Of a stretch of 64,000 nucleotides of DNA, positions 43,885-62,972 are shown in pieces. Under the pieces are notes generated by a model, which saw only the letters and a program-made list of their open reading frames with translations, was not told where the DNA came from and did not search any database. Source of the DNA: a bacterium (GTDB taxonomy: Bacteria > CSSED10-310 > JAJRTK01); assembly GCA_024278345.1 (NCBI GenBank), contig JAJRTK010000277.1, positions 1-64,000 on the forward strand, written 5' to 3'. A program made the position numbers and the translations under genes. The first letter of the stretch is position 1, and each line of letters begins with the position of its first letter.

Positions 43885-46032
43885 CTACCGCTCAATGGTC
43901 AAGGAACTCGATCCATCCGCCCTGAACCGACCGGAACTCTCGTCTGGGGACAAGCCCGGCGACTCCTCCTCCTCCAGAACCTCTGCAAGCCGGCCTAGCA
44001 ATTCGTCGAAGGTGAAGGGCTTGGGCAAAAAAACCGCTCCGGTCTTCCCCAAAAAGGAGGTCAGCTCCTGGTTGAAGAGATCGCCGGAAGTCCAGACACA
44101 CCTCCGCATCAAGCCCGGGGCAACCTCGAAAAACCGCTCGTAAAGCTCGACACCACTAATGTCTGGGAGCCTCCAGTCCACCAGGGCTGCGGCGAATTCC
44201 GAGCCTTGGCAGGCTTCCAAGGCGCAGGTCCCGTCAGCGACACCGGTAACCTCGAAGCCTCGGCGATGCAACAGCGACTGCAGCGCTTCAAGAATTGACT
44301 TCTCGTCATCGACCAACAGGATCTTGCGGCCATGGCCTTTGAGTCTAGCTCCCTCGTCGGCGGCCAATTCCGATTCCCCGCCGCCTGTTTCCGCGAGCCA
44401 CTGGGGCGCGGCAGGAAACCTCAAGAGCACCTGTGTTCCGCCGCCAATCTCGCTGGTGACCTCCAGGGTCCCCCCGTGTTCCTCGACGATGCCCTTGACG
44501 ATGGTCATCCCAAGACCGGCCCCCGAACCGATGGCCTTCGTCGTGAAAAAGGGTTCGAAGATATGCTCCTGCACCTCGGGCCTCATGCCCGGGCCATTGT
44601 CGATGATGAGAAGCTCGCTCCGCTGTTCCTCGGTCCGGCGGGTCACGACGCTCAATACCGGCGGCTCCGTGTTGTGCGCCAGAGCAGCCACGGCATTGTC
44701 GAAAAGGTTGGAAAGAACCTGCTGGAGCTGATGCACGTTCGCCCCTGCAGGCGGCAGACCGGCTTCCAGTTCCGTTTTCAGTTGGATGCCGCTGGAAGCC
44801 AGGCGGTCCCGCCAGTCGATCAAAAAATGATCCACCAGTTGACTCAGATCGACTGCCTCCTTCTCCACCGAATGCGTTTGCGAAAACGAAAGCAGATTCT
44901 TGGCAACCCGGACGCACCGCTCCGTTTCTTCCACCACTCGGGCCAGGTTCTGCCTTAGGAATGGGCTGTGCTGGCTCTTGTGCAAGAGCTTTACGGAACC
45001 CAGAATGTTGAGGAGGGGATCGTTGAGCTCTCTGGCTATTCCGGCGACGAACTGACCCAGGGAAGAAAGGCGCTCGCTCTTGAGGAGGCGATCCCGCGCC
45101 TGGCGGAGCTGCCGGAGATGACGCTCTAACTGTTTGTGGAGGTTGTGATTTCTGAGCATCGCGCCCAGGGCGTCCCCAATGAGGCGACAGAGCCACAGAT
45201 CCCGCTCGGTGAAGGGACCCTGGGCGGCAGAGCGCCGGAGCAGCAAAGCCGTATGAACGACGTCGCCCTCAAGAATCGGCACAGCGAGAACGGATCGAAT
45301 ATCGACTCCCGCCAGGCGGTGGGAAACCGGTCGCATGAGTTGGTCTTGGCCGACATCGCGAACCAAAACAACCTCCTGAGTGTCCAGGAGGCGCTGGACT
45401 TCTGGATACTTCCACATCTCCAGCTGCAATCCACCGGCGGCGGCGGAATCGGTGGAAGAAAGCACGCGAAGCCGTTCGCCTGTATCGCCGGGCAGGAGCA
45501 GAGAAACGCGTTGCGCCTCGAAAAGCATGGAGATCTGATGGAGGATGTTCTGATGGATGTCCTGCCTTGGATCGCTCCTAAGCAAGGCGCCGGTAAATTC
45601 AAGCGTCTGGTGGAGAGAGGCGCGATCGTGTTCCACCTGCTCGTATAGGAGCTTGTGGCGCAGGTGGGATCGGACGCGGGCAAGGAGCTCCGGGAAAAAG
45701 ATCGGCTTCGTGATGTAGTCGTCAGCACCATTCTCGAACGCCAGTAACAGGTTCTGCCGATCGGTGCGGGCGGTCAAGATGAGAACCGGCACATAGTGGG
45801 CGAACGGATGGTGCTTCAGCGTGTAGCAAACCTCAATCCCATCGATATCGGGAAGTCCCAGGTCCAGCAGGACCAAGTCTGGATGCTCACTGCCAAAAAC
45901 CGAAAGTCCTTCACTCCCGGAGCGGCAGACCAAGACCTGGTAACTCTGTTCGCTCAGAAACTCGACGACGGTCTGGGCCACTCCCCGGTCGTCCTCGATC
46001 AACAGGATCTTGGGTCGGCGCACCAGGCTCAT
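43885..46032 (-). CDS. Hybrid REC-GAF-histidine kinase-REC lacking the phosphoacceptor His
   Basis: The 715-residue protein contains an N-terminal receiver (ILLIEDD ... VLLDLGLPDIDG ... ITKPIF), a GAF domain (about 150-300), a HisKA-like dimerisation helix, an HATPase domain with N box HQLQQVLSNLFDNAV, DNGPGMR and GSGAGLGMTIV, and a C-terminal receiver (ILLVDDE ... LVDWRLPDISG ... LPKPFT). The H box reads GIARELNDP, with Arg334 (codon AGA at 45033-45031) where the phosphoacceptor His should be. ATP-binding motifs and both receiver Asp residues look intact, so the protein cannot signal by the standard route through its own H box. GGAGG precedes ATG 46032. It is a tandem paralogue of the next gene. 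Confidence 0.9.
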   Translation of the reverse strand: MSLVRRPKILLIEDDRGVAQTVVEFLSEQSYQVLVCRSGSEGLSVFGSEHPDLVLLDLGLPDIDGIEVCYTLKHHPFAHYVPVLILTARTDRQNLLLAFENGADDYITKPIFFPELLARVRSHLRHKLLYEQVEHDRASLHQTLEFTGALLRSDPRQDIHQNILHQISMLFEAQRVSLLLPGDTGERLRVLSSTDSAAAGGLQLEMWKYPEVQRLLDTQEVVLVRDVGQDQLMRPVSHRLAGVDIRSVLAVPILEGDVVHTALLLRRSAAQGPFTERDLWLCRLIGDALGAMLRNHNLHKQLERHLRQLRQARDRLLKSERLSSLGQFVAGIARELNDPLLNILGSVKLLHKSQHSPFLRQNLARVVEETERCVRVAKNLLSFSQTHSVEKEAVDLSQLVDHFLIDWRDRLASSGIQLKTELEAGLPPAGANVHQLQQVLSNLFDNAVAALAHNTEPPVLSVVTRRTEEQRSELLIIDNGPGMRPEVQEHIFEPFFTTKAIGSGAGLGMTIVKGIVEEHGGTLEVTSEIGGGTQVLLRFPAAPQWLAETGGGESELAADEGARLKGHGRKILLVDDEKSILEALQSLLHRRGFEVTGVADGTCALEACQGSEFAAALVDWRLPDISGVELYERFFEVAPGLMRRCVWTSGDLFNQELTSFLGKTGAVFLPKPFTFDELLGRLAEVLEEEESPGLSPDESSGRFRADGSSSLTIER

Positions 46033-46153
46033 TCTTTGTTCCTCCCTAGTCCCAGGTTCTTTTGGCACTGCCCCGCTGAGGGCGGTTCATTCGGCTTCGT
46101 CACTCCCATAGTCTCCCCGCGGCGCCCAAGGTCGGGAAGCCGTCCGGGAACCG

Positions 46154-48250
46154 TCACGGCACCTCTGTGACCCGGGGTCTGAGAGTCTCTCCTATCTGTG
46201 CCAACAACTGATCGAAGGTGAATGGCTTTGCCAAGAACCTCTCCTCGATCCGCTGCATGGCCAAGCGCTGGCGAGCGGCATAGGGATCTCCGGAACTGAA
46301 GATGAAGCGGCCTTCAATCTCAGGATCAACGTCCACCAACCGCTGGTAAAGCTGCTCTCCACTCATATCTGGCAATTTCATGTCGATGAACAGGACATCA
46401 AACCGTTTTTCCCGGCAAAGCTCCATCGCTTGACGCCCCGTGGCCGCTCGCCCAACCTCGAACTGGCAATGCTTGAGAAAAGTGGAAAGAGCTTCCAGGA
46501 TTGAACGCTCATCATCAACGAGCAAGACAGACTTGCTCTTCGTATCATCGGCGGCCACTCCATGACCTAGAGAAGAAGAAAAGCCAACGGCCTCTTCCGG
46601 CAGCTTCTCCACTGACTCCCGCTCCACGGCTTGTGCCAACGGAAAGTGTATGGTCACCGTTGTGCCGCGGCCCGGGCTGCTCGAAAGGTCGATCTTGCCT
46701 CCATGGTCTTCGACGATCCCCTTGACAATGGTCAGGCCAAGCCCTGTACCGCTCCCCATGGTGCTCGTCGTAAAATAGGCCTCGAAAACTCGGCTCCGAA
46801 CCTCTTCCCGCATTCCAGGCCCATTGTCGTGAACCAATAGTTCGATCTCAGCCTCCCGCACCCGTGCGGAAATACTCAGACACGGCGGTTCGGCCGCGTG
46901 GGCCAATGCCGCGGCGGCATTGTCAAAAAGGTTCCCGAAAACCTGCTGCAACTGGTGCTTGCTTGCCATGATCGGTGGAAGCCGAGGCTCCAGGGCAATC
47001 CGAACCTGGATTCCCGCCATGTCAAACCTGCGCGACCGATCCTGCAACGCCAACTGTAATACGTCGGCAAGGTCCACGCGGTTCTTCTCCGCCGAATAGG
47101 TCTCAGAAAAGGTAAGCAGATTCCGCACCATCCCGGAACAATGCTCGGCCTGCTGGAGAACGCGATTCAACCCCTGCCGCACATAGGGGTTCTGCTGCCC
47201 ACGCATCAACAGGCGGCTGTAGCTGGCAATGCTCGTGAGAGGCGCACTGAGCTCCTTGGCGATTCCAGCCACGAACTGTCCCAGCGAAGAAAGCCGTTCG
47301 CTCTTGAGCAATCGATCCCTGGTCTCCGTGAGCTGCTGAACCTTTCGCTCGAACTCAAGATGCAGGCTCGTATTGCGCAGCAAGGCCCCCAGCGCGTGTC
47401 CGATTAGCTGGCAAAGCCAGAGATCCCGCTCCTCGAACGGGGGCTGGTCCAGTGACCGGCGCAACAGGAGAGTCGCATGGAGCTCATCCCCCTCAAAAAT
47501 AGGAATGACCAAGACCGACCGAAGATCCACCTCGGCAAGGTGCTCCGCCACAGCCGACATCAGCCGATTGCTCCGGATGTCCCGAACCATCACGACTTCT
47601 CGCGTCTCGATGGAATGTTGGACCTCGGGATACCTCCACATTTCAAGCTGCAACCCGCCCACAGTGGCTGAATCCGTCGATGACAAGACCCTGAGAAGCT
47701 CCCCGCCGCTTTCCGGGAGCAAAAGCGAAACTCGCCGGGAATTGAAGAGCACCCGGAGCTGTTCCAAGATGCTCTGGTAAACGTCGTCCTGGGGCCCGGA
47801 TCGAAGAATCGTACCGGTGAAGTTCAAGATCTGCTGGAGCGTCGTGCGATCTTGATCCATCCGCTCGCAAAGGTGCTTCACACGAAGATGCGCTCGGACC
47901 CTGGCGAGCAACTCCTCCAAGAACACCGGCTTGATGATGTAGTCATCCGCGCCGGCCTCAAAAGCGTCGATGAGGTCGCCCCGCCGCTCACTACCGGTCA
48001 AAATCAGAACCGGAACATACTTCGCGAACGGGTGATGCTTCATGGAATAGCAAACATCCAGTCCCGGCATGTCCGGTAATCCAAGGTCCAGAAGCACAAG
48101 ATCGGGGACATTGTCCGAAAACTGCCGTAGCGCCTCCTCCCCGGTGCCACAGGCCTGAGACTCGTACCATCGCTCAGAAGCAAGGTACTCCGTCACAACC
48201 CCCACAACGTGAGGGTCGTCCTCTACAAGGAGAATCCTAGATTTGCGCAT
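46154..48250 (-). CDS. Second hybrid REC-GAF-kinase-REC lacking the phosphoacceptor His
   Basis: The 698-residue protein has the same domain order as its downstream paralogue: receiver with VLLDLGLPDMPG and IKPVFLEE, GAF (SSTDSATVGGLQLEMW shared almost verbatim), HisKA-like helix, HATPase with HQLQQVFGNLFDNAAAALA, DNGPGMREE and GSGTGLGLTIVKG, and a receiver with VLLVDDERSILEAL and FIDMKLPDMSG. The H box reads GIAKELSAP, with Lys332 (AAG at 47257-47255) replacing His. The loss in both copies suggests a shared mechanism, not random decay. ATG 48250 follows AGGGAACTTCCGG. It is upstream of its paralogue by 121 bases and probably in the same transcript. Confidence 0.9.
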   Translation of the reverse strand: MRKSRILLVEDDPHVVGVVTEYLASERWYESQACGTGEEALRQFSDNVPDLVLLDLGLPDMPGLDVCYSMKHHPFAKYVPVLILTGSERRGDLIDAFEAGADDYIIKPVFLEELLARVRAHLRVKHLCERMDQDRTTLQQILNFTGTILRSGPQDDVYQSILEQLRVLFNSRRVSLLLPESGGELLRVLSSTDSATVGGLQLEMWRYPEVQHSIETREVVMVRDIRSNRLMSAVAEHLAEVDLRSVLVIPIFEGDELHATLLLRRSLDQPPFEERDLWLCQLIGHALGALLRNTSLHLEFERKVQQLTETRDRLLKSERLSSLGQFVAGIAKELSAPLTSIASYSRLLMRGQQNPYVRQGLNRVLQQAEHCSGMVRNLLTFSETYSAEKNRVDLADVLQLALQDRSRRFDMAGIQVRIALEPRLPPIMASKHQLQQVFGNLFDNAAAALAHAAEPPCLSISARVREAEIELLVHDNGPGMREEVRSRVFEAYFTTSTMGSGTGLGLTIVKGIVEDHGGKIDLSSSPGRGTTVTIHFPLAQAVERESVEKLPEEAVGFSSSLGHGVAADDTKSKSVLLVDDERSILEALSTFLKHCQFEVGRAATGRQAMELCREKRFDVLFIDMKLPDMSGEQLYQRLVDVDPEIEGRFIFSSGDPYAARQRLAMQRIEERFLAKPFTFDQLLAQIGETLRPRVTEVP

Positions 48251-48386
48251 TCCGGAAGTTCCCTGGGAAGCCAAATGACCGAGCCGATCCACTCCGTCCC
48301 CCCAATGGACCCGATTGCCACGCCTACCAAGTTAGTGCCTTTTTCCAAAAAATGCCAACCTCTTATCTCAGGCAGTTCTCCATGGT

Positions 48387-49388
48387 CTAGTGCTCAACCC
48401 ATTCCAGGCGATAGGGACCACCTGCCACGGTGAAGCTCCCTCGCAACTTCCAACCCACAAGATCGATGACCATCACCGAATCGTCCACCGGGGAAACCAC
48501 CCATGCCGCCTCTCCCCAAGGATGAAGCAGGATGTCCGTCACACCACGCCCCACCGCAAGACGATCCGCAACCTCCTTCGTATCCGTATCGATCTTCACC
48601 AAGTCTCTGATCCCGTCGGTCTCCAGGAGCAGATAGGGTGATCGCGGCAGATGGCGCAAGCTCCGTACGCGACCCTCAACCTTGATGACTCCTTCCAAGT
48701 CACCTGCTTCCGGATCAAAAAAACTGACGCCCCCCGGACTCGCCTTCACCAACGCCACCACTCCCGACTGAGGATCCAACGCCAGCTCAGTCACGCCCGA
48801 CACCGCCTCCACCTCCTCCAAGGCACGATTCTCCAAATCGAGCAAGAACAGCTCCCCGCTTTCACGCAAAACAAGAACCTGCCTAGTCGATGGATGAAAC
48901 AGTAAATCCCTCATTCCGAAACCAACGGAATAGGATCTACGCACCAACCCGCTGATCGCCGACAAGACCAAGATGCGCCCAGATTCCACGCATCCAACCA
49001 GAACGCTCTTTTTCCCAAAGGCGCGAAGAAGACCGGGCTTCCGGCAACCGTTCAAAACCACCGACCGTTCAGCACTCCCCGTCAGCGCCCCGAACCACGT
49101 CAATACGCCCCCCATCCTCCCTTTGAGAGCCGTGCTCGAGACCAATAGATAGAGTGTCTCCGGAACCCGGAGCAGATCGAGCGGCTTTCCCACAAGCTCC
49201 GTCTCCCGCAGGATCTTGCCTTCCGTAGACTCAAAAAAACGGACCTTTCCATCCTTGCGGCAAAGGGCGGCAAGAGTGTCGGCCCCGCTCTCTAAAACGG
49301 ATACGCCCAACAAAAACAGTACCATAGAGCAAAGAAGCCACCAGAATTTTCGGCCATGAGACCTTCCGTCAACCGCCATTCGGATCAT
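48387..49388 (-). CDS. Exported YVTN/NHL-like beta-propeller protein
   Basis: The 333-residue protein has an N-terminal hydrophobic segment (FWWLLCSMVLFLLGVSVL) that is probably a signal peptide or anchor. It continues as repeated propeller strands such as GKVRFFESTEGKI, GRILVLSAISGL, HPSTRQVLVLRESGELFLLDL and HPWGEAAWVVSPVDDSVMVIDL, the YVTN-type pattern. Several in-frame starts exist (49400, 49388, 49379); 49388 has GAGGGG upstream and is chosen with moderate certainty. A dispersed repeat copy lies between it and the oxidase gene. A ligand or signalling partner role for the hybrid kinases downstream is plausible by position only. Confidence 0.72.
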   Translation of the reverse strand: MIRMAVDGRSHGRKFWWLLCSMVLFLLGVSVLESGADTLAALCRKDGKVRFFESTEGKILRETELVGKPLDLLRVPETLYLLVSSTALKGRMGGVLTWFGALTGSAERSVVLNGCRKPGLLRAFGKKSVLVGCVESGRILVLSAISGLVRRSYSVGFGMRDLLFHPSTRQVLVLRESGELFLLDLENRALEEVEAVSGVTELALDPQSGVVALVKASPGGVSFFDPEAGDLEGVIKVEGRVRSLRHLPRSPYLLLETDGIRDLVKIDTDTKEVADRLAVGRGVTDILLHPWGEAAWVVSPVDDSVMVIDLVGWKLRGSFTVAGGPYRLEWVEH

Positions 49389-49410
49389 GAGGCCCCTCAT
49401 CCTTCTCTTT

Positions 49411-49460
49411 GTTGGGTTCCGCTCTCATCGGCGGCGGTCCCACCGCCGCTGCTCGCCGCT
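49411..49460 (+). repeat. Dispersed repeat, copy E
   Basis: A 50-bp diverged copy between the propeller gene and the oxidase gene. The 5' part (GTTGGGTTCCGCTC) is well kept, while the core has changed into a GGCGGCGGTCCCACCGCCGC hairpin. Confidence 0.55.
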
Positions 49461-49479
49461 CCACCGGCAAGGCCAAGGG

Positions 49480-50886
49480 CTAGCCCCCTCCCGCAAGACG
49501 CTTCCCCAGATCAAAGGCGTTCTCCACACAATTATTCATCGCCACCCCATGGTACGAGTTCCCCGACAGGTGCAGCCCTGGCCACCGGTCGGCCAGCGCC
49601 TCCACCTTCGCTACCCGATCCAGGTGGCCGAGAGTGTACTGTGGAATCGCCCGCGGGTAACGGTAAATCCGCACCAGCTCGGGGTCTCCCTCGAGCCCGA
49701 GGACCGGCCGGAGCAACTCCAAGGTCTTTGAAAGCAAGATCTCTTCCCCCTCCTCCACAATCCGACCCTGCCTCCGGCCACCCAACATTGCCCGGAGAAG
49801 AACCCGGCCCTCCGGCGCACGGCCAGGGTAGATGGAAGAGCTGAAAAGGCATCCCAAAATCGGCAAACCCTCTCGCCCCGGAACCAGGAACCCGAACCCC
49901 TCAGGCGTCCGCGTCACCTTTTTCGCCTCGAAGCCCAGGCAAACCACGGCGACGGGGGCGTAAGGAAAATCCTCCAGCCCGCGGGCCAGTTCTTCCGAAA
50001 GCCCCGACAACATCGGTGCTGCTCGATATGATGGCACGGTGACCACGACCTGATCCACCGGAATCCCGCCGGCCGAAGTCCGCACCTCAAGACCATTCTC
50101 CGCCTCGACAATCGCGGCCACGGGTGTACCAAGCTCAATTTTTTCAAGTCCGATCCTCTGAACCAAAGCGTCAATGAGCTCGCCCAGCCCGCCGCGCAGG
50201 GAGGTTAAACTACCGCTCGGGCCGGTCTGGATAGCCGGGCCATCCCTGTCGCCGCCCTCGCTCTTCCGCTTCCGCCGCTTCTCTCGCGCCAGAGCGATGG
50301 CCCCACGGATCAAGCTCCCGTGATTCGTCTCCAACCGCCGAAGCCGTGGGAAAGCCGCATCTACGGAAAGCTCGCCGGGATCGCCGCCATAGATCCCCGT
50401 CACCATGGCGTCCACAAGGGTCGTCGCCAAACCCCGGCCCAACCGCCGCGAGGCGAACTCGAGCACAGTCTCTTCCCCCTTCCCCCGCGGGATAAAAGGC
50501 TCCAATGCCACCCGAAGACGAGACCAAAACGGCAGGATCGGACTCCGAAGAAAACTGGGAGGAGAGATCGGCACCGGTTCCAATCGCCCCGAAAGCAACA
50601 AAAACCGGTTCTTCGAAGCTGCCTCACTGGCCCCCACAAGCCGAGCGCCCACCCCCAACATCGAACAAAGCTCCAATGTCGGGGGCGAATTGTTCAAAAA
50701 ACCGTTGGGACCCCATTCGCAAAGGTAGCCATCCACTGAATCCGTCCGGATCTTGCCGCCTGGCCGGGTATCGGCTTCCAAGATGACCAGATCCGCCTCG
50801 GTTCCTCGCTTCCGGCTCTCCTCCAACAAGGCGAAAGCCGTCGTCAGTCCGCTGATCCCGGCGCCGATGATCGCGGTTTTTCCCAT
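49480..50886 (-). CDS. Protoporphyrinogen oxidase, HemY type
   Basis: The 468-residue flavoprotein begins with the dinucleotide-binding motif AIIGAGISGLTTAFAL and continues ILEADTRPGGKIRT, the second FAD-contact region of the amine-oxidase superfamily. WGPNGFLNN and the C-terminal GLHLSGNSYHGVAMNNCVENA are typical of oxygen-dependent PPO (called hemY or hemG in databases). It oxidises protoporphyrinogen IX or, in the coproporphyrin route, coproporphyrinogen III; the two are not easily separated by eye. ATG 50886 is chosen over 50907. It lies 27 bases downstream of hemE, so the pair is an operon. Confidence 0.88.
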   Translation of the reverse strand: MGKTAIIGAGISGLTTAFALLEESRKRGTEADLVILEADTRPGGKIRTDSVDGYLCEWGPNGFLNNSPPTLELCSMLGVGARLVGASEAASKNRFLLLSGRLEPVPISPPSFLRSPILPFWSRLRVALEPFIPRGKGEETVLEFASRRLGRGLATTLVDAMVTGIYGGDPGELSVDAAFPRLRRLETNHGSLIRGAIALAREKRRKRKSEGGDRDGPAIQTGPSGSLTSLRGGLGELIDALVQRIGLEKIELGTPVAAIVEAENGLEVRTSAGGIPVDQVVVTVPSYRAAPMLSGLSEELARGLEDFPYAPVAVVCLGFEAKKVTRTPEGFGFLVPGREGLPILGCLFSSSIYPGRAPEGRVLLRAMLGGRRQGRIVEEGEEILLSKTLELLRPVLGLEGDPELVRIYRYPRAIPQYTLGHLDRVAKVEALADRWPGLHLSGNSYHGVAMNNCVENAFDLGKRLAGGG

Positions 50887-50913
50887 CTTCACACTCTCGC
50901 TTCCCACAAGAGG

Positions 50914-51939
50914 TCAAACAGCCCAGGGGGGCCGCCAATTCACAACCTCGTCCACCATCCAGCCCACTGCCTCTACGGGAGTTCCGGGCAGAACGCCGTG
51001 ACCAAGGTTGAAGATGTGGCCACGACCGCCCCCGACATCGAGAATCGCTCGGGTTTTTGAGCGAACATGCGATTCCGGCCCAAAGAGAGTCACCGGATGA
51101 AGATTCCCCTGAACCGAAGAACCGCCCAAGCGCTGCCAGCACTCATCCACGGGAAGCTGCCAATCAATACCCACGACGTCGGCGCCGGCCTCCGAGACAT
51201 CCTCCAAGAATGCCGAGCACCCCTTGGGAAAGTAGATCACGGGAACTCGCCCGGAGATTCTCTGGACGATCTCCCGGACGAAAGGTAGGCAATAGCGGCG
51301 AAACTCCTCCCGTCCAAGGTTCCCGGCCCAAGTATCAAAAATTTGCACGGCTTGGGCACCCGCGTCCACTTGCGCCTCCAAATAAGCGGCAACCGTCTGG
51401 GTCAGCTTTTCAAGGAGTAAGAGTCCCGCGGATTCGTCATGGGCCAGGAAGCGGCCAAGCCAGGTAAACTGCTTGGCTCCGCTGCCCTCCACAAGATAGG
51501 TGGCCAAGGTATATGGGGCGCCGGCAAACCCGATGAGAGGAACCCCCCGGCTCTCAAGTTCCCGACGCAGGAGACGCACCCCCTCCAAGACGTAGGGCAC
51601 GGATTCCCGAGGATCGGGAACCCTCAATGCCTCCACTTGCTTTCGGCTGCGAATGGGATCACCGATAACCGGTCCAGGATTGAAAGTCAGATCGATCCCC
51701 ATGGCCTCCAGCGGGACCATGATATCGGAAAAGAGGATCGCCGCGTCGAATCGGTACCGTTCGATGGGCTGAAGGGTCACCTCGCAGAGGAGATCGGGGC
51801 TCTTACAGAGCTCCAAGAAACTGACCTTCTCCCGCACCGCGCGATATTCAGGAAGGTATCGCCCAGCCTGGCGCATCATCCAGACGGGGGGTCTGTCCAC
51901 GGACTCGCCTCGGCAAGCCTGCAAAAAACGTTGGTTCAC
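50914..51939 (-). CDS. Uroporphyrinogen III decarboxylase
   Basis: The 341-residue protein starts NQRFLQACRGE and contains the family signature RPPVWMMRQAGRYLPEY, LFSDIMVPLEAMGIDL with the catalytic Asp, and GIDWQLPVDECW. It converts uroporphyrinogen III to coproporphyrinogen III. The longer frame from 52005 would overlap the nuclease gene; GTG 51939 with TTGGAG eight bases upstream is preferred. It follows the nuclease stop by 38 bases, close enough for shared transcription. Confidence 0.93.
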   Translation of the reverse strand: MNQRFLQACRGESVDRPPVWMMRQAGRYLPEYRAVREKVSFLELCKSPDLLCEVTLQPIERYRFDAAILFSDIMVPLEAMGIDLTFNPGPVIGDPIRSRKQVEALRVPDPRESVPYVLEGVRLLRRELESRGVPLIGFAGAPYTLATYLVEGSGAKQFTWLGRFLAHDESAGLLLLEKLTQTVAAYLEAQVDAGAQAVQIFDTWAGNLGREEFRRYCLPFVREIVQRISGRVPVIYFPKGCSAFLEDVSEAGADVVGIDWQLPVDECWQRLGGSSVQGNLHPVTLFGPESHVRSKTRAILDVGGGRGHIFNLGHGVLPGTPVEAVGWMVDEVVNWRPPWAV

Positions 51940-51977
51940 GTTGTCTCCAATTGGGTGTTCGTTTCCCGGTGGCGGGA

Positions 51978-54900
51978 TCAAGCCTCCACCCGGTGCCGGC
52001 GCCAAATAATCCGGCCAGCTCCAACCAGCAAGAGTAGCAAGGCCAAGAGAAGGAGAGCTTCCGACATCGCTCCCACGCTGGGGAGCAGGTCCGTCGCCTC
52101 CGTCCAGGTTCCATTGCCGCTATCAGGGTCGTCCGTGACCGCCGTGACGACAAAGCTCGTGCTCAAAGGAGTCACGGCCGTTGAAGAAACCGTTGTCTCC
52201 ACCATGACGATAGCGGTCTGCAGGGAAGCCAGCGAACCCAAATCGCAGGTCAAAGTCCCGCTATTGTCGGTGCAGCCCAGGGCGGAGACCAAGGTCAATC
52301 CTCCATCCAAAGTCACTTCCAAAGTGACTCCCGAGGCATCTGACGGCCCACCATTGGTCACCGTGGCCGTGTAATTTAGTTTTCCACCCACAGCGGCCGG
52401 ATCCAGATCGTCGGCGACGCTCACCGAAAGATCGGCCGATGTCGTGACAACGATGCTCCCGGTTCCACTGTCATTCGCCGAGTTTTGGTCTCTGGTCGAT
52501 GATGTCACCGTCCAAATCATGTCGGCCAAAGAGCTGGCGGAGGAATCGAGAAGGGCATCCAGATCCACCGAAATCGCACTGCCAGACGGGATGTCGCCAA
52601 GATCGCAGGTGACCAGCCCTCCGCTTTCCGAGCAGCTCGCCGAAGTCGCCCGCACGGGCGCAACGAAGGTCAGGCCGTTGGGCAACGCCCCTGATAAGCT
52701 GCCACCACTGGCTGTCCGTGGTCCGTTGTTCGTCACCGTGACCGTATAGGTCACCGCCGAACCCGCAATGGCAGGACTGGTTGTCGAAACGGAAGTCACC
52801 TCCAGATCGGCATACTCTTCCCCTTGCACGAAGAGCACCAGAGGATCGTGATCGGATGCACGCACGGGAGTGTTTGGATCGGCGGCGGCGCTCCCCTCAT
52901 CGGGAGCGTCGGCGTTGACCCGACCGAACTCGATGCCCGTGACGGTTTGGGCCATGCTTTCGGAAGTTAAAATGTGATCCAGCACCTGCGCGGACCCGTT
53001 GGCCTGCCACGAATAGCGCTCTTCCAGAGCAAGATTCAGCACCTGATTGGTCATGTCCGGAGTGACCTCATCCGTCACGGGGATCACCGAATCATTGGGA
53101 TCCGTCAGACCCCTTATCTGCCCCACGACATCGTAATAGCCGTCGGAGAACTCGAAGGCATTGAAATCCCCCAGCACAATGATGGGCATGTTCGGATCAG
53201 CAGTCTGGAGGGACTGGATATACTGGGAAAGCCTCGTCGCCTGCTCCAATCGCTTCTGCCGTGCAAACTCGCTGGAGTCCACGCCGATGAACGACCGCAA
53301 ATGCACGGCGATGGCCGTGAACGAGAAACTCGTGCCAACTCCGTCCACCTGACCTTCCAACACCAAGGGCACGCGGTCGTAGAGATCGTATGTCTGGCCA
53401 TCGAGATCGAAGGTGTCGCTCAGGCCGAACTGGGAAAGGACGATGTTCGACACCTTCCCCTTGGTCAAGAAGCCCACCTGCTGAGAACCGGCGTTGGGGC
53501 TATCCATCAGATGAGAAGTGTAGATCGTGTTGGGATCTTCGGTGGCAATCTGGGCCACCAGAGCATCGAGAGTCGCCTGATCCTGGACCTCCTCGATGGC
53601 CAAAATATCGGGTGCCTTGAGAACGTCGAGCACAAGCTTCGAAAACTTCTTCAGCCGGTCGGTCTCCGTGTTCCGAAGGAACTCCGTGTTCAACGTCGCC
53701 AGCGTGAATTCCCCGGGCAGCCGATCGCGGACGGCCCGGTAGGTAAAGGTGTTGGAAACGGAAAGGCTCTTGGGCTGAATCTGGTAGTCGCCAAAAACGA
53801 AGCCCAGCGGTCCCTCGGCCGTAAAGGTATCTCCGGCGGACATCTCCACCATGGGCAGGCCAAGAGCGTTGGGATCGAGTTCGAACAGCTCGGGGTTGCC
53901 ATCCCAAACCGGGATTCCCGTGAGGCCCGGATACTCGATCCCCGCCTCTCTCAGCGCCCGGGCACGGCCGGGGGCCACCGCCATGAAGTCTCCGTACCGA
54001 TTGCTGGCTCCACTGACGATACCGTCGGTCACCTGGACAAGCATCCCCTCGAACCTCTCCAGAGGCGGCGGATCCGCTGGACTCGACGCCGGCGTCGTGC
54101 CGTCGAAAACCACTGCCGCGGGAAGCGGATTGCCGGACGAAACCACCGTGACAACAGGAGATCGGGTGATCTCGGTGAAGCTGTAATACTCGTCCACAAG
54201 TCCTGTTACATCCACCTCGTCGCCCACGGTCACCGATGGGGCGACCTCCGTGAAAACGAAGAGCCCTTCGGAGGTCGCCGGATCGCCATCATCCGTGCCA
54301 TCGGGCGTCTGGATGTAGAATCCATCGGCGGCCACGGCTGTCACAAGGTTTCCTTTCAAAACCACGGCCCGGTCGATGTACGGTGACTTGCTGGCGGCCC
54401 CTTGGACCTCATAAATCTTCAGCTCCGGCAGTGCCACGCAGCCGGAGAAACTCGTGCCATCGATGCGGACGCCCGGGGAGAAACGGCTCCCACCGGAACC
54501 CGTCGCCTGAGAATGCTGAACGTACGGCGGACTCCCAAGAATATCGGGATCGAGAGTGATGGAGTCGCCATTGGCCGCTTCCGCTCCATAGGTGACATCC
54601 ACCACGTTGCTCGTGGGATCGTTGGGATCGCGGTAGACTTGAAGGGTGTCGCCAGCGTCATCAAGCCCCAGCCCGCCGGTGGAAGCCGTCTGGACAAGGG
54701 CGCCTCCAAACGCATTTGGATCGGGAGTTCCACCGCCGAAAACCAGGACGGAGCACTGGTCGGGAAGAAAGCTCCCCGGAGGAAAAACATGGCGCGTGGC
54801 CGCGGCATCCTGCACGACCCACCCGTCTAGGTTGATGTCCACTCCGGAGTCGTTCACGAGTTCCAGGAACTCGTCTTGAGCGGCATCCACGGTGCCATCC

Positions 54901-57900
54901 CCATTGGCGTCGCCCGCGTTGGGATCCGGGGCCGAGTGGATTTCGTTCAGCACGGCCATGGGCGGTCGGCGGCCCGGGGTTGGGATCATGGAATCCCATG
55001 TTACCGACAGATCCTCCGAGGTCTCGTCATTCCCCCGAAGCCCGTTTCCACCGTAGGGCACCTCGTTTCCCTCCCACGGGTCGATCCGCTGGAACGACTT
55101 CCCCGCCGAATGCGCGGACGTGGAAATGACATCCTGGCTCGCCGTCACCGTGTCGGCCAAATAGGAGGTGGCCGCCGTATCACCGTCGGGGCCATCCACG
55201 GAGATTCCCGTCTTGTCCACGGCCTCCGCCTTGTCCCCCCAAACAGCATAGTCCAGATCCACGACAAGATCGGACTGGCCGTCCCACTGGTAGAGCACCA
55301 TCACCTCGCCACCACTCAAGCCACTGGAATCCAGGCTCCCATCCTGCTCCCACGGAAGATCGATGGAGCCGCTGAACGCCTCCAACATGTCGGGAACGTT
55401 AGGGTCCGTTCCATACAGCTCGTACGTGGGAGCCGACCCGTAAACAGCCTGAAAATCCAGCGCCCCCTGGACCGCAACCGTCTGGAAATCCCCCGACGCA
55501 ATGGTCGCTCCAGAGGGGAACTTCGCATGAAAATCCCTGAAGCTCCCGCCACCAGCCAGGCAGGCGGCTACATTCCCCCCGCCGGTACAATCCGCCGTCA
55601 CGATGTTGTAATAGTAATCTCCCCCGCTGCTATAAGTCGCGTCGGTCAAATAGACGTCGGTCAAATCGATGGTGGCTGTGGTGGGGTTGTGGATCTCCAC
55701 GAACTGCCCGGAATCCTGGCTCACCACCAGCTCAGAAAGCTGTAACGTTCGCTCTGGCGCGGGACAACCGGCAAATGGAACTCCGTCACTTTGGGTTCCA
55801 GGCGAAAACTGGACTCCCGGAGGGCCAGCCCCGGCGGTGGTGTGAGGCACGTATGGCATGGAACCGGTAATATCCGGATCCAGAGTGATCGACTGACCCT
55901 TCAAAGCCTCGGCGCCGAATGTCACCTGGACATCCGGATTGTTGGGATCCGCCGGGTTCGGAAGCAAAGAGATGGTGTCGCCGCCATCCACCAACCCCAG
56001 ACCGCCGGAAGCCACCTGGACCGTGGTCTTCCCGAAATCCCCCACGGGAGTACCGCCGCCAAACAACACAAGTGCGCAGCCATCGGGAACAACGGTCCCC
56101 GAAGGAAAGGTGTGGACCAATCCCTGTCCCGTTGCCAGGCCCCAGCCCGAAAGATCCGCGGCGGCGCCGGTATTGTTCACCAGCTCGATAAACTCATCGG
56201 CGACTCCGTCTCTCGTGCCGTCGCCATTAGCGTCTCCCAATACGGCGTTCGGATCGATGAGATCTCCCGAATTCGGGTCGGTTATGGGATCGGAGTAGAT
56301 CTCGTTCACCACCCACTGGAATGGCGCCGGCTGGCCCGGCGTCACAGCCGCTGCTCTCCAAGTGGCCGATAGGTTCTCCGAGGTCTCGTCATGCCCCGTG
56401 ACACCATTCCCTGCCACTTTGGTTTCCGTGCCCTCATTGAGATCAATCCGGTGCCACGACGAGCCGAAGGGGTGGGCTCCGGTGCTGACGATATCCTGGC
56501 TGGAAATTGCGGTATCGGCGGCATAAGCCGTCCCGGTGACGTCCAGGTCGGGACCATCAACGGAAACCCCCGTCTTGTCCACGGCTTCGACCTTATCGCC
56601 CCACACGGCGTAATCGATATCCCGCACCAGGTCCGAGACGCCATTCCAACGGTAAAGGATGACCACCTCACCGCTATTGGTCAAAGAACCCTGGTTGTTG
56701 ATGGAACCCGCGGACGCCTCCCGCATATCCGGGATGGAGTCGGCGGCACCATCTTCGTAAAGCTCGTAGGTGGGGCTCACTCCCCACTGTGTCAGGAATG
56801 CGTCGGACCCCGCTAACGACACGGTTTGGTACTCCCCCGGGGCGATGGAGGACCCGGCGGGAAAACGGGCGTGAAAATCACCAAAATCGCCACCACCGGC
56901 GTTGGAACCGGTCACGATGTTGTAGTAGTAGTTCCCCCCCGTTGAGTAAGTGGCATCGGTCAAATAGAGATCATCCAGGGAAATCGTCACGGGCGTCGGG
57001 TTGTGGATTTCGATGAATTCACCTCCGGTAGGCGTCACCACGATCTCGCTCAAAAGGAGTGTCGGGCCTCCATTGGTCCCGCCCATGGTACAAGGCTGGT
57101 CCACCAAGGTCACGCCGCCACCGGACGAGCTCCAGTCGTAACCGTCGTTGGGACCGGCTCCGTCGGGAAGCCTGGAAAAACAGCCCGTCTCCGTTCCCCC
57201 GCTCCAGCCAAGCTGATCCACCCGAACCCCCGAACCATCCATGAGATAGGCCACGTCACTGCCGGTGAAGTTCATGGTGCCGGAAAAATCTACTCCAGAA
57301 ACCAACACGAGCCAGCCACCGGGTGCCACGGTGCCCCCGGCCAAAGGTGAAAGCTCATCTCCGTCGCTCAACACCCACCCTGTCAGATCGACCGCCACCG
57401 AGCCAGGGTTGTAGAGTTCCACCTGGTCCACGGCATTGGGATCGGGGAAGACATCGATCTCGTTCAGGATGGCGGATGTCCCCAGCGCCGTTCCCCCAAC
57501 GTCGTTGGCAACCCCCTGCGTGGGAGTGGCGTCAAGGTTCCAGTCCACGGCATCCACCCCGGTATCCAGGCCATCGGCGGTCCTGGCCGCACTGGATCCC
57601 ACGGGAGCGACGGGGGCTCCACCCTTCGTCCCATAGGCGACTCGGTCCACTTCCGCTCCGGTATTGTCGCACAGGACCAAGAAATCCCCCACATTGCTCA
57701 ATGCAAAATTGTCTCCCGCTCCTCCCGCGGTCACAACGAAAAAACCGCCGTCGGCGATGTTCGTCCCCCCTGGAATCGTGCTGACTCCAACCCCGCAAGC
57801 CGCATCGTCAAGATACCAACCCGCCACGGAAATCACGCCGCTTCCAACGCTGTTATGAAGTTCCACCCACTCCGTGCCCTTCGGCACGAACTCGTTGATG

Positions 57901-58100
57901 GTGACCGCCGCTCCCGCCCCTGCTTCAAAGAAGATTAGCACCACCATCCAGGCAAGAACCGGGAGCCATCCTCCAACTGAAGGGAAACCGACCCGACTCG
58001 CCGCTCTTTCCATGGGCGGCAAGGTCGAGGCCAGAGCTCCGTTCGGCAGACCAGAAAACGGGGCGTCGAACTCAGAACAGCGGCTTCCGGCGGGATTCAT
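51978..58100 (-). CDS. Giant surface nuclease with lamin-tail domains, DUF11 repeats and sorting tail
   Basis: The 2040-residue protein has a hydrophobic signal segment around residues 45-60 preceded by a long basic N-region. Six lamin-tail-like (LTD) domains follow, recognisable by INEFVPKGTEWVELHN, NEIDVFPDPNA, LSEIVVTPTGGEFIEIHN, NEIYSDPITDPN, LSELVVSQDSGQFVEIHN and NEIHSAPDPNAG. An OB-fold-like segment lies near 1225-1330, then an endonuclease/exonuclease/phosphatase domain with LNTEFLRNTE, ILAIEEVQ, VLGDFNAFEFS and ASDHDPLVLF. Two DUF11-type Ig-like repeats follow, and the C-terminus has LPSVGAMSE, a hydrophobic helix and RRHR, a sorting tail. About 1.3 kb is tandemly duplicated inside the gene. 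Layout resembles extracellular nucleases such as ExeM and NucH. ATG 58100 follows GAGGAGAGGACG. Confidence 0.9.
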   Translation of the reverse strand: MNPAGSRCSEFDAPFSGLPNGALASTLPPMERAASRVGFPSVGGWLPVLAWMVVLIFFEAGAGAAVTINEFVPKGTEWVELHNSVGSGVISVAGWYLDDAACGVGVSTIPGGTNIADGGFFVVTAGGAGDNFALSNVGDFLVLCDNTGAEVDRVAYGTKGGAPVAPVGSSAARTADGLDTGVDAVDWNLDATPTQGVANDVGGTALGTSAILNEIDVFPDPNAVDQVELYNPGSVAVDLTGWVLSDGDELSPLAGGTVAPGGWLVLVSGVDFSGTMNFTGSDVAYLMDGSGVRVDQLGWSGGTETGCFSRLPDGAGPNDGYDWSSSGGGVTLVDQPCTMGGTNGGPTLLLSEIVVTPTGGEFIEIHNPTPVTISLDDLYLTDATYSTGGNYYYNIVTGSNAGGGDFGDFHARFPAGSSIAPGEYQTVSLAGSDAFLTQWGVSPTYELYEDGAADSIPDMREASAGSINNQGSLTNSGEVVILYRWNGVSDLVRDIDYAVWGDKVEAVDKTGVSVDGPDLDVTGTAYAADTAISSQDIVSTGAHPFGSSWHRIDLNEGTETKVAGNGVTGHDETSENLSATWRAAAVTPGQPAPFQWVVNEIYSDPITDPNSGDLIDPNAVLGDANGDGTRDGVADEFIELVNNTGAAADLSGWGLATGQGLVHTFPSGTVVPDGCALVLFGGGTPVGDFGKTTVQVASGGLGLVDGGDTISLLPNPADPNNPDVQVTFGAEALKGQSITLDPDITGSMPYVPHTTAGAGPPGVQFSPGTQSDGVPFAGCPAPERTLQLSELVVSQDSGQFVEIHNPTTATIDLTDVYLTDATYSSGGDYYYNIVTADCTGGGNVAACLAGGGSFRDFHAKFPSGATIASGDFQTVAVQGALDFQAVYGSAPTYELYGTDPNVPDMLEAFSGSIDLPWEQDGSLDSSGLSGGEVMVLYQWDGQSDLVVDLDYAVWGDKAEAVDKTGISVDGPDGDTAATSYLADTVTASQDVISTSAHSAGKSFQRIDPWEGNEVPYGGNGLRGNDETSEDLSVTWDSMIPTPGRRPPMAVLNEIHSAPDPNAGDANGDGTVDAAQDEFLELVNDSGVDINLDGWVVQDAAATRHVFPPGSFLPDQCSVLVFGGGTPDPNAFGGALVQTASTGGLGLDDAGDTLQVYRDPNDPTSNVVDVTYGAEAANGDSITLDPDILGSPPYVQHSQATGSGGSRFSPGVRIDGTSFSGCVALPELKIYEVQGAASKSPYIDRAVVLKGNLVTAVAADGFYIQTPDGTDDGDPATSEGLFVFTEVAPSVTVGDEVDVTGLVDEYYSFTEITRSPVVTVVSSGNPLPAAVVFDGTTPASSPADPPPLERFEGMLVQVTDGIVSGASNRYGDFMAVAPGRARALREAGIEYPGLTGIPVWDGNPELFELDPNALGLPMVEMSAGDTFTAEGPLGFVFGDYQIQPKSLSVSNTFTYRAVRDRLPGEFTLATLNTEFLRNTETDRLKKFSKLVLDVLKAPDILAIEEVQDQATLDALVAQIATEDPNTIYTSHLMDSPNAGSQQVGFLTKGKVSNIVLSQFGLSDTFDLDGQTYDLYDRVPLVLEGQVDGVGTSFSFTAIAVHLRSFIGVDSSEFARQKRLEQATRLSQYIQSLQTADPNMPIIVLGDFNAFEFSDGYYDVVGQIRGLTDPNDSVIPVTDEVTPDMTNQVLNLALEERYSWQANGSAQVLDHILTSESMAQTVTGIEFGRVNADAPDEGSAAADPNTPVRASDHDPLVLFVQGEEYADLEVTSVSTTSPAIAGSAVTYTVTVTNNGPRTASGGSLSGALPNGLTFVAPVRATSASCSESGGLVTCDLGDIPSGSAISVDLDALLDSSASSLADMIWTVTSSTRDQNSANDSGTGSIVVTTSADLSVSVADDLDPAAVGGKLNYTATVTNGGPSDASGVTLEVTLDGGLTLVSALGCTDNSGTLTCDLGSLASLQTAIVMVETTVSSTAVTPLSTSFVVTAVTDDPDSGNGTWTEATDLLPSVGAMSEALLLLALLLLLVGAGRIIWRRHRVEA

Positions 58101-58494
58101 GGCACGTCCTCTCCTCAAAACGGGGCAGAGCGGGTGAAAAGTGAGACCCGTGGGGATTTTTCTTTCTTGACTGTCCTATATCACTTCGGGGCAAGGCGAG
58201 CCAGACGGCTTGCCGATCCAGATTGCGGGCCGACGGGTGAGCGATGGGAGCGGCCGCGATCAGCGCGAACGGAACTCAAACAAAAGCCTCGACTTCGCCA
58301 TGGTGTTGCCTGGCGAACAAGTTTCTGGAACCATGGCAGCAAAAGAGTTAGAGTCCGTAAGAAGATGAACTCCTGTCCTGAAGGTCGCAGTCTTCGGTGG
58401 TCAGTGCATCAGGGAAATCCCAAACGGGAAAACTAACTTTTGCAGCCCTTTAGCATGGCTGAAACACGCCGTGGAACAGGCGGGCGGAACGAAG
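58101..58494. other. Intergenic region, nuclease and kinase-FGE genes
   Basis: This 394-base gap between divergent genes holds dispersed-repeat copy F (58235-58281). No further gene, tRNA or clear promoter pair was identified. Confidence 0.45.
58235..58281 (-). repeat. Dispersed repeat, copy F
   Basis: A 47-bp copy in inverse orientation, nearly identical to copy C in the trmJ-like gene. It lies between the divergent nuclease and kinase genes. Confidence 0.75.
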
Positions 58495-60924
58495 ATGAAC
58501 AACACCAAACCCGGGCAAGATCCAGGGAATGGCAACGAAGAGAGAATCGTTGATCCAGGCCGTGCTCTGCTTCGGGCGGCGGTGCGTGCTGTAGCCCTGG
58601 GCCTGATACCGGGCGGTCTTTTTGTGGGCTCGCTTTTCGAGGAAGTTGTCTCGCCCTGGTGCGAGGCCGGCTGGAAGTGGTTGAATAACCGCAAAAAGAA
58701 GGAACAGCAACAGGCCATTGACGGGCTTGCGCGGATCCCTGTGGAGGATGCGCGGCGGATCGCGGAAGAGGAGCTCGGCGGATCGAAGCTGACGCCCGAG
58801 GAACGGGAAAAAGTCGCCGACTATCTGGCGGTCATCCCCATGACGGCGCGGCGTGCCATCCAGCATACCCAAGATGGAGGAAAACCGGCGACCCTCCTGT
58901 CTCAGCTCCCGGCACACCAAGACTCGCTGATGAAGTTCCTGCCTCTCCGGCCTCCTCGGTTCAAGGCCGGGCACAAGGTTCCTTCCTACGATTTCGAACT
59001 GGAGCTGCTCCTGGGCCAGGGTGGTTTCGGCGAAGTCTGGAAGGCGCGGCACATTCGCCGGCAGTCGGTGCCGCCCAGAGCCTTCAAATTTTGCCTGGAC
59101 GAGTCGGTGAGGGTAAGCCTTGAGCGGGAGCTCGATCTTCTGGACCATATCGAGGCTAAGGGCCGACACCCGGGGATCGTCCAGCTCCTTGGAACAGCGA
59201 TGACGGCGGCCCCCCCCTTCTTGATGTACGAGTACATCGACGGCGGAGACCTGGTGGCCTGGCTGGCGAGCTTCGACGGACGCCCTCCGCCGGCACGGGA
59301 CGTGATGCGCATCCTTTGGATGACGACCGAAGCTCTTGGCTTCGCCCATGAGCTCAATATTGTTCACCGCGATCTCAAGCCCGCGAACCTGCTCATCACC
59401 CGAAAAGGGCGCATCAAGATCGCCGACTTCGGCATCGGAGCCTTGAACGCTCACGCCGCCGCGGTTGGCGAAGCAAGCCCGGCGGCATCACAGATGTCCC
59501 TGCTCCAAGGGGCCTGCACGCCCATGTACGCTGATCTTGCGCAACAACGGGGAGAAAGGGTCGATGCCCGCGCCGACGTCTATGCCCTTGGGGTGATCGT
59601 CTATCAGCTCCTCCTAGGCGACGTCACTCAGGCACTCTCCCCCTACTGGAGGGAAGAGCTCGAGGATCGGCAGATTCCCGGTTCCGTCGTGGATCTCGTG
59701 GCATCGTGCATCTGCTCTCCAAAGCGCCGGATTCCCGATGCCAATGCCCTCCTTGCGGAAATGCAAAGGCTCAGAAAAGCCTCTCGAAAGGGCCGGACAT
59801 CCGCGCCAACCTCTCCCGGCCCGGCACAAAAAAATCGCCAACCGGCACAAACGGCGACTCTGGCACCACCAATGCCTGGCCCACAGCCTCCGGTATCGTC
59901 CATGGTGCCACCGCTTGGGCCGCCAGTAGAGGCGACATCGCCTCCTAAAAGCGCCCGCTTCTCCAATTCCGGGCCCTCCACCCGGGAGCTGCTTCTGGCA
60001 ACCTTCGAGACGGATTCCGACGGCAAGACTGGGCAGCCCTCATCAACCGCTCTTCCACCCTCCTTCCAACAAATGATCCACCGGACGATCCACCGGTTCG
60101 ATAGCGTGACGCCCACCTCCATGTCCATGGTCGTCGATGAAGAATCTGAAACCTCTTCGGGTCCCAGCATCGGTGATACTCGCTGGATTCCACTCTCTGA
60201 AACAGCCAGGCTGGGATTCGTCTGGGTTCCAGGTGGCACCTTCCAGATGGGGGCAACCGGTGACGACCGCCATGCCGAGCCGGACGAGAAACCGCCACAC
60301 ATGGTGCGCCTCACCGGATTTTGGCTGAGCCGAACTCCGGTGACGCAAGAAGAGTGGGACGCGGTCATGCGGGGCGCCACGGTGACGCAGGGCTGGGTCT
60401 TTCGCAAGACTTCCTCCCTGGAGTCGCCCAGCGCCTTCCGCGGCCCGGCCCGACCGGTGGAAAACGTGTCCTGGAACGATCTCCAGGTTTTTCTGAAACG
60501 AGCTCCTCTCAGCCTCCGCCTCCCCACGGAAGCCGAATGGGAATACGCGGCTCGGGGCGGATTGACGGCAATCCGCTACGACGCAGTGGACGAGGTGGCA
60601 TGGTACGCCGGCAACAGCAAACGGCAGACCCAACCCGTGGGCCTCTTAAAACCCAACCAATACGGACTTTACGACATGCTGGGCAACGTATGGGAGTGGT
60701 GCCTGGACGTGTACCACGTGGATGCCTACAAGAGCCGTCGCGGGATCACCGACAACCCCCGCGTCAACAGCCCCTCCACCGGAGATCGAGTCCTCCGCGG
60801 AGGCGCCTGGTACACACCGGCCCCCATCATCCGAGCCTCGAACCGCTTCGCCGACTCTCCGGATCGAAGAAGCCCCAACACCGGATTCCGCGTCGTCCTC
60901 CGCGACCGGTGGGACACGGTTTAA
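58495..60924 (+). CDS. Ser/Thr kinase fused to formylglycine-generating-enzyme-like domain
   Basis: The 809-residue protein has an N-terminal helical region of about 160 residues, partly hydrophobic (AVALGLIPGGLFVGSLF), with the conserved-looking LTPEEREKVADYLAVIP. A kinase domain follows: GQGGFGEVWKAR, the Lys in RAFKFCL, IVHRDLKPANLL and IADFGIG. A Pro/Ser/Thr-rich linker separates it from a C-terminal SUMF1/FGE-type domain with FVWVPGGTFQMGA, RLPTEAEWEYAARGG, MLGNVWEWCLDVY and RVLRGGAWY. SUMF1-like domains bind sulfatase-type or other targets, and many bacterial ones are not catalytic. ATG 58495 is preferred to GTG 58471. It is convergent with the OmpR-type regulator gene (24 bases apart). 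Confidence 0.92.
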   Translation: MNNTKPGQDPGNGNEERIVDPGRALLRAAVRAVALGLIPGGLFVGSLFEEVVSPWCEAGWKWLNNRKKKEQQQAIDGLARIPVEDARRIAEEELGGSKLTPEEREKVADYLAVIPMTARRAIQHTQDGGKPATLLSQLPAHQDSLMKFLPLRPPRFKAGHKVPSYDFELELLLGQGGFGEVWKARHIRRQSVPPRAFKFCLDESVRVSLERELDLLDHIEAKGRHPGIVQLLGTAMTAAPPFLMYEYIDGGDLVAWLASFDGRPPPARDVMRILWMTTEALGFAHELNIVHRDLKPANLLITRKGRIKIADFGIGALNAHAAAVGEASPAASQMSLLQGACTPMYADLAQQRGERVDARADVYALGVIVYQLLLGDVTQALSPYWREELEDRQIPGSVVDLVASCICSPKRRIPDANALLAEMQRLRKASRKGRTSAPTSPGPAQKNRQPAQTATLAPPMPGPQPPVSSMVPPLGPPVEATSPPKSARFSNSGPSTRELLLATFETDSDGKTGQPSSTALPPSFQQMIHRTIHRFDSVTPTSMSMVVDEESETSSGPSIGDTRWIPLSETARLGFVWVPGGTFQMGATGDDRHAEPDEKPPHMVRLTGFWLSRTPVTQEEWDAVMRGATVTQGWVFRKTSSLESPSAFRGPARPVENVSWNDLQVFLKRAPLSLRLPTEAEWEYAARGGLTAIRYDAVDEVAWYAGNSKRQTQPVGLLKPNQYGLYDMLGNVWEWCLDVYHVDAYKSRRGITDNPRVNSPSTGDRVLRGGAWYTPAPIIRASNRFADSPDRRSPNTGFRVVLRDRWDTV

Positions 60925-60947: not shown

Positions 60948-61667
60948 CTATTCGGCGGGACCAGGCGGAACTGGCGTGAACTGGTAACCGACGCCTCGAA
61001 GCGTGTGGATGAACCTTGGCCGGGCAGGATCTACTTCGAACCTTCTCCGCAGCCGCGCAATAAAATTGTCGATGGTTCTTGGCGTCGGAAAGCTATCCCG
61101 GCCCCAAACGCGGTCAAGGATCTCGTCCCTGGACACGACATCTCCCGAACGCTCCGCCAGCAGCTTGAGGAGCAGGCACTCCTTTTGCGTCAATCGCGTC
61201 GCCTTCCCATCGACGCCCACGGCTTCGAAGCGGCCAAAATCAACGCGGTTGGCGCCAAACTCGAGGATCGCGCCAGCACCTGTCTGGTCCGCGTACCACG
61301 CACGACGCCGCAACATTCCCTCCACCCGAAGCAAAAGCTCCTTGAGGTGAAAAGGTTTCGCCAAGTAGTCGTCCGCTCCCAACTCCAAGCCTCGGATACG
61401 GTCCTCAGCCCGCGCCTTCACGGTCAAAAAGAGAATCGGTGTCCGATCCCCCGTGGCCCGAATCCTCTGGCAAACTTCGTAGCCGCTCTTGCCGGGCATC
61501 ATCACGTCAAGAATGAGCAGTTCCGGCCGATCCTCGCGCCAGAACTCCAGCGCCTCGTCGCCGTCCTTAGCCCAGAGTACCCGGTACCCCTCGGCCTCCA
61601 AGTTGAGGCAGACCGCCTCTCCAATATGCTCCTCGTCCTCCGCCAGCAAGATGAGATTCTGGCTCAT
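60948..61667 (-). CDS. OmpR/PhoB-family response regulator
   Basis: The 239-residue protein has a receiver domain at residues 5-120 (ILLAEDEEHIGEAV, phosphoacceptor in LLILDVMMPGKSG, Lys in LAKPFHLKE) and an OmpR-type winged helix at the C-terminus (RLTQKECLLLKLLAE, VWGRDSFPTPRTIDNFIARLR, IHTLRGVGYQF). ATG 61667 overlaps the sensor kinase stop as ATGA, with AGGAGG upstream; the longer frame from 61742 is rejected. It is the output partner of the kinase immediately upstream on the same strand. Targets are unknown. Confidence 0.93.
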   Translation of the reverse strand: MSQNLILLAEDEEHIGEAVCLNLEAEGYRVLWAKDGDEALEFWREDRPELLILDVMMPGKSGYEVCQRIRATGDRTPILFLTVKARAEDRIRGLELGADDYLAKPFHLKELLLRVEGMLRRRAWYADQTGAGAILEFGANRVDFGRFEAVGVDGKATRLTQKECLLLKLLAERSGDVVSRDEILDRVWGRDSFPTPRTIDNFIARLRRRFEVDPARPRFIHTLRGVGYQFTPVPPGPAE

Positions 61668-62830: not shown

Positions 62831-62910
62831 CCGGCCATGCTCTTTGGCCAACAGGCACCCCCTTTTTTTTCCTCCAACCCCATGATCGTCAACAATGGCG
62901 ATGACATTCC

Positions 62911-62959
62911 GGGTTGCGTTCCGCTCACGTCACTCACGTCCGTGTCGCGCCGCTCGCCC
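62911..62959 (+). repeat. Dispersed repeat, copy G
   Basis: A 49-bp copy between the sensor kinase start and the hemC-hemD gene end. It is closest to copy B (3613-3661), sharing CCGCTCACGTC and the CGCCGCTCGCCC end. Confidence 0.7.
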
Positions 62960-62972
62960 TATGACCTCTATA

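Follow-up and report, generated by a model that had tools for sequence, protein, structure and literature searches.

Tandem paralogous histidine-kinase-like proteins lacking both DHp catalytic residues: a probable pair of receiver-controlled pseudo-histidine kinases

DivL of Caulobacter crescentus is a pseudo-histidine kinase with Tyr550 at the phosphoacceptor position, and it showed neither autokinase nor phosphatase activity in vitro; a phosphorylated regulator docks on its chemically dead core and is read there, and the core modulates a second kinase (PMC4211667). DivL has been described as PAS sensors plus a kinase module without receivers, and the residue replacing the His is Ala in one species. 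In LvrB of Leptospira, once the N-terminal receiver is phosphorylated, the helix that joins it to the DHp domain changes its arrangement and the CA domains are released (PMC13269768); LvrB retains His161 and works as an autokinase, and it has neither a GAF domain nor a C-terminal receiver. RocA of group A Streptococcus and a laboratory-evolved ChrS of Corynebacterium glutamicum are non-catalytic sensor-kinase homologues that act through another kinase (PMC7028121, PMC9491836), and both are defective in the CA domain. In the archaeal RdmS/MsmS of Methanosarcina acetivorans, the entire H-box region is missing from an ATP-binding kinase module. Here we describe a tandem pair of paralogues that resembles each of these systems in part.

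The window, that is, the whole stretch of 64,000 nucleotides that was analysed, comes from one draft assembly (550 contigs, 87.9% complete). Two adjacent genes on its minus strand, here called the K copy and the R copy, encode proteins that are 53% identical from end to end. Pfam assigned two receiver domains (REC), GAF, HisKA and HATPase_c to each copy, with HisKA and HATPase_c above the cut-off. The genes and their domains are as follows.

46154..48250, minus strand: K copy, 698 aa, REC-GAF-HisKA-HATPase-REC, ATG at 48250
47894..48235, minus strand: N-terminal receiver domain of the K copy (DD, D55, T85 and K107 intact)
47378..47788, minus strand: GAF domain of the K copy (Pfam)
47105..47284, minus strand: HisKA (DHp) domain of the K copy (Pfam)
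46634..46957, minus strand: HATPase_c (CA) domain of the K copy (N, G1, F and G2 boxes all there)
46181..46534, minus strand: C-terminal receiver domain of the K copy (DD, D623, S653 and K675 intact)
43885..46032, minus strand: R copy, 715-aa paralogue with the architecture of the K copy, ATG at 46032
45670..46008, minus strand: N-terminal receiver domain of the R copy (Pfam)
45163..45567, minus strand: GAF domain of the R copy (Pfam)
44878..45060, minus strand: HisKA (DHp) domain of the R copy (Pfam)
44407..44733, minus strand: HATPase_c (CA) domain of the R copy (Pfam)
43969..44322 (low end approximate), minus strand: C-terminal receiver domain of the R copy (DD, D, S and K intact)

The two ATGs are the best starts and reproduce the residue numbers of the initial annotation. 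The K copy also has an in-frame GTG upstream at 48292, and the open reading frame from 46154 to 48292 is open throughout. The R copy frame (43885-46068, minus strand) is full length with no interruption, and a ribosome-binding-like GGGAGG lies just 5' of its ATG at 46032. The pair ends a same-strand run in which the following genes precede it.

52005-50914, minus strand: hemE
50907-49480, minus strand: protoporphyrinogen oxidase
49400-48387, minus strand: gene resembling a beta-propeller, with no Pfam or NCBIfam match

The K copy and then the R copy follow, and the gaps between the last three genes, counted from the ATGs, are 136 and 121 bases; co-transcription of these three genes is possible from their layout. 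Promoter and terminator scans detected no more sites than in shuffled sequence. Further up the strand lie hemA, a hemC-hemD fusion, and then a normal kinase with an OmpR-type regulator. Heme-synthesis genes on the strand of the pair were seen at 48387-52005 and 60948-63986 of the window and at 2974-6362 of L113. Two further proteins are encoded in the window. One, of 2046 aa, combines an ExeM/NucH-type nuclease region with lamin-tail-like and DUF11 repeats (51978-58118, minus strand), and the other is a fusion of a Ser/Thr protein kinase with a domain of the sulfatase-modifying-factor (FGE) type (58471-60924, plus strand).

The initial annotation had reported that the H-box His is replaced in both copies, and both the codons and a column comparison bore this out. 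A second loss, at the H+4 position, had not been recorded there. The four positions are listed below.

47255..47257, minus strand: Lys332 at the phosphoacceptor His position of the K copy (codon AAG; H box GIAKELSAP)
45031..45033, minus strand: Arg334 at the phosphoacceptor His position of the R copy (codon AGA; H box GIARELNDP)
47243..47245, minus strand: Ala336 at H+4, the phosphatase Asn/Thr position, of the K copy (codon GCG)
45019..45021, minus strand: Asp338 at H+4, the phosphatase Asn/Thr position, of the R copy (codon GAT)

The comparison set comprised 115 other kinase cores, 112 of which cover the H and H+4 columns. The phosphoacceptor column held His in 110 of these 112, so that the pair stood out when homologues were inspected at this position as the annotation had proposed, and the H+4 column held Asn or Thr in 105, against Ala and Asp in the pair. 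At a further column, residue 444 in the GTG numbering, 91 of the 115 relatives have Asp and the pair has Ser and Asn. The kinase at 61664-62851 of the window keeps its His (H box AVSHELKSPL), as had been stated. In CrdS, a HisKA kinase of Myxococcus, the H371A mutant lost kinase activity and retained most phosphatase activity, N375A and N375D at H+4 each abolished phosphatase activity, and E372 (H+1) was required for kinase activity (PMC3510030). Because both the His and the H+4 residue are replaced, the pair is expected, by comparison with the CrdS mutants, to lack kinase and phosphatase activities alike; the missing His alone predicts the absence of autokinase activity, and the loss at H+4 removes the phosphatase option, so a phosphatase-only role was rejected. 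Without the H-box His and the H+4 Asn/Thr the proteins differ from canonical HisKA kinases, and with the phosphoacceptor absent there is no His to phosphorylate a receiver in cis as in a hybrid kinase. A DHp and CA fold from which the phosphoacceptor His is absent is that of a pseudo-histidine kinase.

The phosphoryl group might instead pass to the Lys or Arg itself or to another side chain. Phospho-Lys and phospho-Arg occur in nature, and both copies retain the H+1 Glu, whose counterpart in CrdS the kinase reaction requires. However, pairwise alignment of the DHp domains revealed no substitute His common to both copies, and RdmS, which has no H box, binds and hydrolyses ATP and is reportedly not an autokinase (PMC11784639). 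We consider such a transfer very improbable.

The remaining functional sites were retained, as the initial annotation had described for the nucleotide-binding boxes and for the Asp residues of both receivers. The N, G1, F and G2 boxes are present in both copies, with the N-box Asn pair and the G1 motif DNGPG kept, and all four receivers keep the Asp-Asp/Asp/Thr-Ser/Lys active-site set. The N-terminal receivers are 61% identical between the copies with all catalytic residues kept, and the C-terminal receivers are just 42% identical, yet their five active-site residues are the same. The longest identical run of the whole pair spans 21 residues, in the helix that ends directly before the lost His, and the remainder of the DHp domain is 38% identical. 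Over 687 aligned codons, pN was 0.33 and pS 0.72, and dN was 0.43 and dS about 2.4, a ratio that is known only roughly because synonymous sites are near saturation. By these values both proteins have been under purifying selection since the duplication. Because dN is far below dS, the 21-residue run is unchanged, and the ATP boxes and receiver sites are intact, the loss is taken to be real and retained under constraint.

These findings also bear on whether the genes are decayed or mis-assembled and the substitutions damage or sequencing error, for which a single incomplete draft as the source would speak. The His codons are CAT and CAC, and AAG and AGA thus both lie more than one base change away. 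Sequencing error was rejected, since at least two base changes per codon would be required in each of two copies, with the ATP and receiver sites spared. Moreover, the reading frames are intact, the proteins are under purifying selection, and the changes fall on the DHp catalytic positions. Decay or error is therefore the least probable of the explanations considered here.

In a kinase-core tree of 114 sequences, made by a quick method with the H and H+4 columns left out and with many weak deep forks, the K and R copies grouped together with support 100, nested in a clade of 27 rows (support 97); each of the remaining 25 rows has both His and Asn. Since the pair nests inside a clade that otherwise has His and Asn throughout, the simplest history is one old loss before the duplication, followed by an interchange of Lys and Arg. 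Two independent losses were set aside, as the tree makes one loss simpler. The earlier argument that the same loss in two copies indicates selection thus held in part: retention under constraint was upheld by dN and dS, whereas the two losses are probably a single event.

No orthologue was found in seven other genomes of the phylum, in a GTDB-wide contig scan, or in 386 genomes across the domain, for which both a profile of the pair and the REC-GAF part by itself served as queries, and none was found in phylum-wide searches around two relatives, which covered three genomes each. The GTDB-wide scan returned 13 distant loci, and outside the source genome matches to the pair stayed at core-level similarity (about 34% identity). 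Among REC-GAF modules, the closest ones are parts of REC-GAF-GGDEF or REC-GAF-PAS-HisKA proteins. The nearest core relatives are REC-GAF-HK-REC and GAF-HK-REC hybrids of other phyla (for example L140, L114 and L023), which share the architecture in part but, unlike the pair, all retain the His and the H+4 Asn.

The H column was read for every HisKA match in the source genome and for nearly all in five same-phylum genomes. Non-His residues occurred in 4 of 49 in the source genome (the K copy, the R copy, one Gln and one Glu) and in 1 of 129 in the five others. Because the Fisher p-value was 0.02 by proteins and 0.06 by independent losses, enrichment in the source genome is suggestive only. The Glu belongs to a 1902-aa protein (L142 2179-7887, G000:C395) that resembles GAF, PAS and kinase-core domains towards its C terminus; its H region reads SKVAERIRNYL, with the H+4 Asn kept and the ATP boxes apparently intact. 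The Gln belongs to a membrane kinase-like protein (L108 270-1712, minus strand, G000:C150) with a degraded G1 box, in which both kinase halves look degenerate from the sequence. The one non-His case among the 129 is a Tyr, in a same-phylum genome that encodes a fusion of a kinase core with a hydrogenase-like iron-sulphur protein (L285 2010-4049, G003:C311), followed by a REC-HisKA gene; the H box of this fusion is Tyr-Lys-Leu-Asn-Asp, so that the His and the H+4 Asn are both lost as in the pair, in an unrelated architecture.

Because the ATP site is intact, two further explanations were weighed. In the first, the pair would be a half-active donor whose CA domain phosphorylates the His of another kinase in a mixed dimer. 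In several kinases (EnvZ, CheA and NtrB), a subunit that lacks the His but has a functional CA domain can complement one that lacks the CA domain. The retained ATP-box residues would fit such a role, as would the extreme conservation of the pre-H-box helix between the copies, which might be a dimer interface; however, the genome encodes no kinase so similar in sequence that it would suggest itself as a dimer partner, the best match being about 31% identical, and we consider this explanation unlikely. In the second, the pair would sense ATP or adenylate charge: the Lys or Arg would contact the gamma-phosphate and lock the ATP-bound CA domain, and ATP occupancy would be the signal. Both copies have a basic residue at this ATP-facing site and intact ATP boxes, but Lys and Arg interchange easily through AAA or AGG as an intermediate codon, and the shared charge may be mere ancestry; we hold this to be distinctly improbable. 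Intact boxes are in any case not proof of ATP binding, as DivL has the kinase fold but shows weak binding of an ATP analogue (PMC4211667). Two ideas raised in the initial annotation, sensing that depends on ATP and receivers that gain phosphate from another kinase, are plausible.

An AlphaFold2 model of the K copy had a mean pLDDT of 84.5 and a pTM of 0.45, indicating that the domains are well modelled but their mutual arrangement is not. In this model a continuous helix (residues 274-351) links the GAF domain into the DHp domain. Foldseek and sequence matches to solved structures included ZraS, HK853, LvrB and DivL. DivL and the pair have in common a HisKA-HATPase fold (PDB 4q20 matched both the model and the profile) in which the phosphoacceptor His is replaced. 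The pair is not a DivL orthologue: it has Lys or Arg at this position, GAF and no PAS, receivers at both ends, and tandem copies. As in LvrB, an N-terminal receiver, in the pair the presumed input, is connected by a helix to the DHp-CA core, here with the GAF domain between. Neither RdmS/MsmS nor the pair has a usable H box in its kinase module, and ATP binding is predicted for the pair; in the pair, however, the His and not the whole region has gone. In contrast to RocA and the evolved ChrS, the pair has intact CA boxes and a defective DHp domain.

We consider it fairly probable that the two proteins are a tandem pseudo-histidine kinase pair, acting as receiver-controlled cytoplasmic relays that have no His-Asp chemistry of their own and are read by a partner. 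On the best reading, by analogy, the pair would work like DivL at the output side and like LvrB at the input side. Since the DHp-CA core has lost the residues for both phosphate acceptance and phosphatase action, we do not expect it to carry out His-Asp chemistry by itself, and because the receivers retain their active sites we infer that something else phosphorylates them. The N-terminal receiver would be phosphorylated in trans by another cellular kinase or a small phosphodonor; this signal, together with that of a GAF ligand, would travel down the long GAF-DHp helix, and the resulting change would shift the arrangement of the DHp and the presumably ATP-bound CA domains. A putative partner, either a kinase or a response regulator, would then dock and read the shape of DHp-CA, as with DivL, an output that would be allosteric. 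The C-terminal receiver may be charged in trans and serve as a docking partner, a sink or an output.

A more elaborate alternative to these partner-read relays is that the basic residue holds ATP instead of accepting phosphate and that the paralogues integrate N-terminal receiver phosphorylation, GAF ligand and ATP occupancy for a partner kinase, the duplicated module being kept. We regard it as rather unlikely; if true, a duplicated module would be signalling without its own His-Asp chemistry.

Pseudo-histidine kinases are already known, and the pair is a variant in which the DHp catalytic residues are missing while the ATP site and receivers are intact. The pseudo-kinases compared here have either ATP-binding defects (DivL, RocA and the evolved ChrS) or no H box at all (RdmS), whereas the pair has lost both DHp catalytic positions and retains the ATP site and all four receivers in two diverged copies. 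It thus offers a clean natural test of the role of the histidine-kinase scaffold once its chemistry has been removed.
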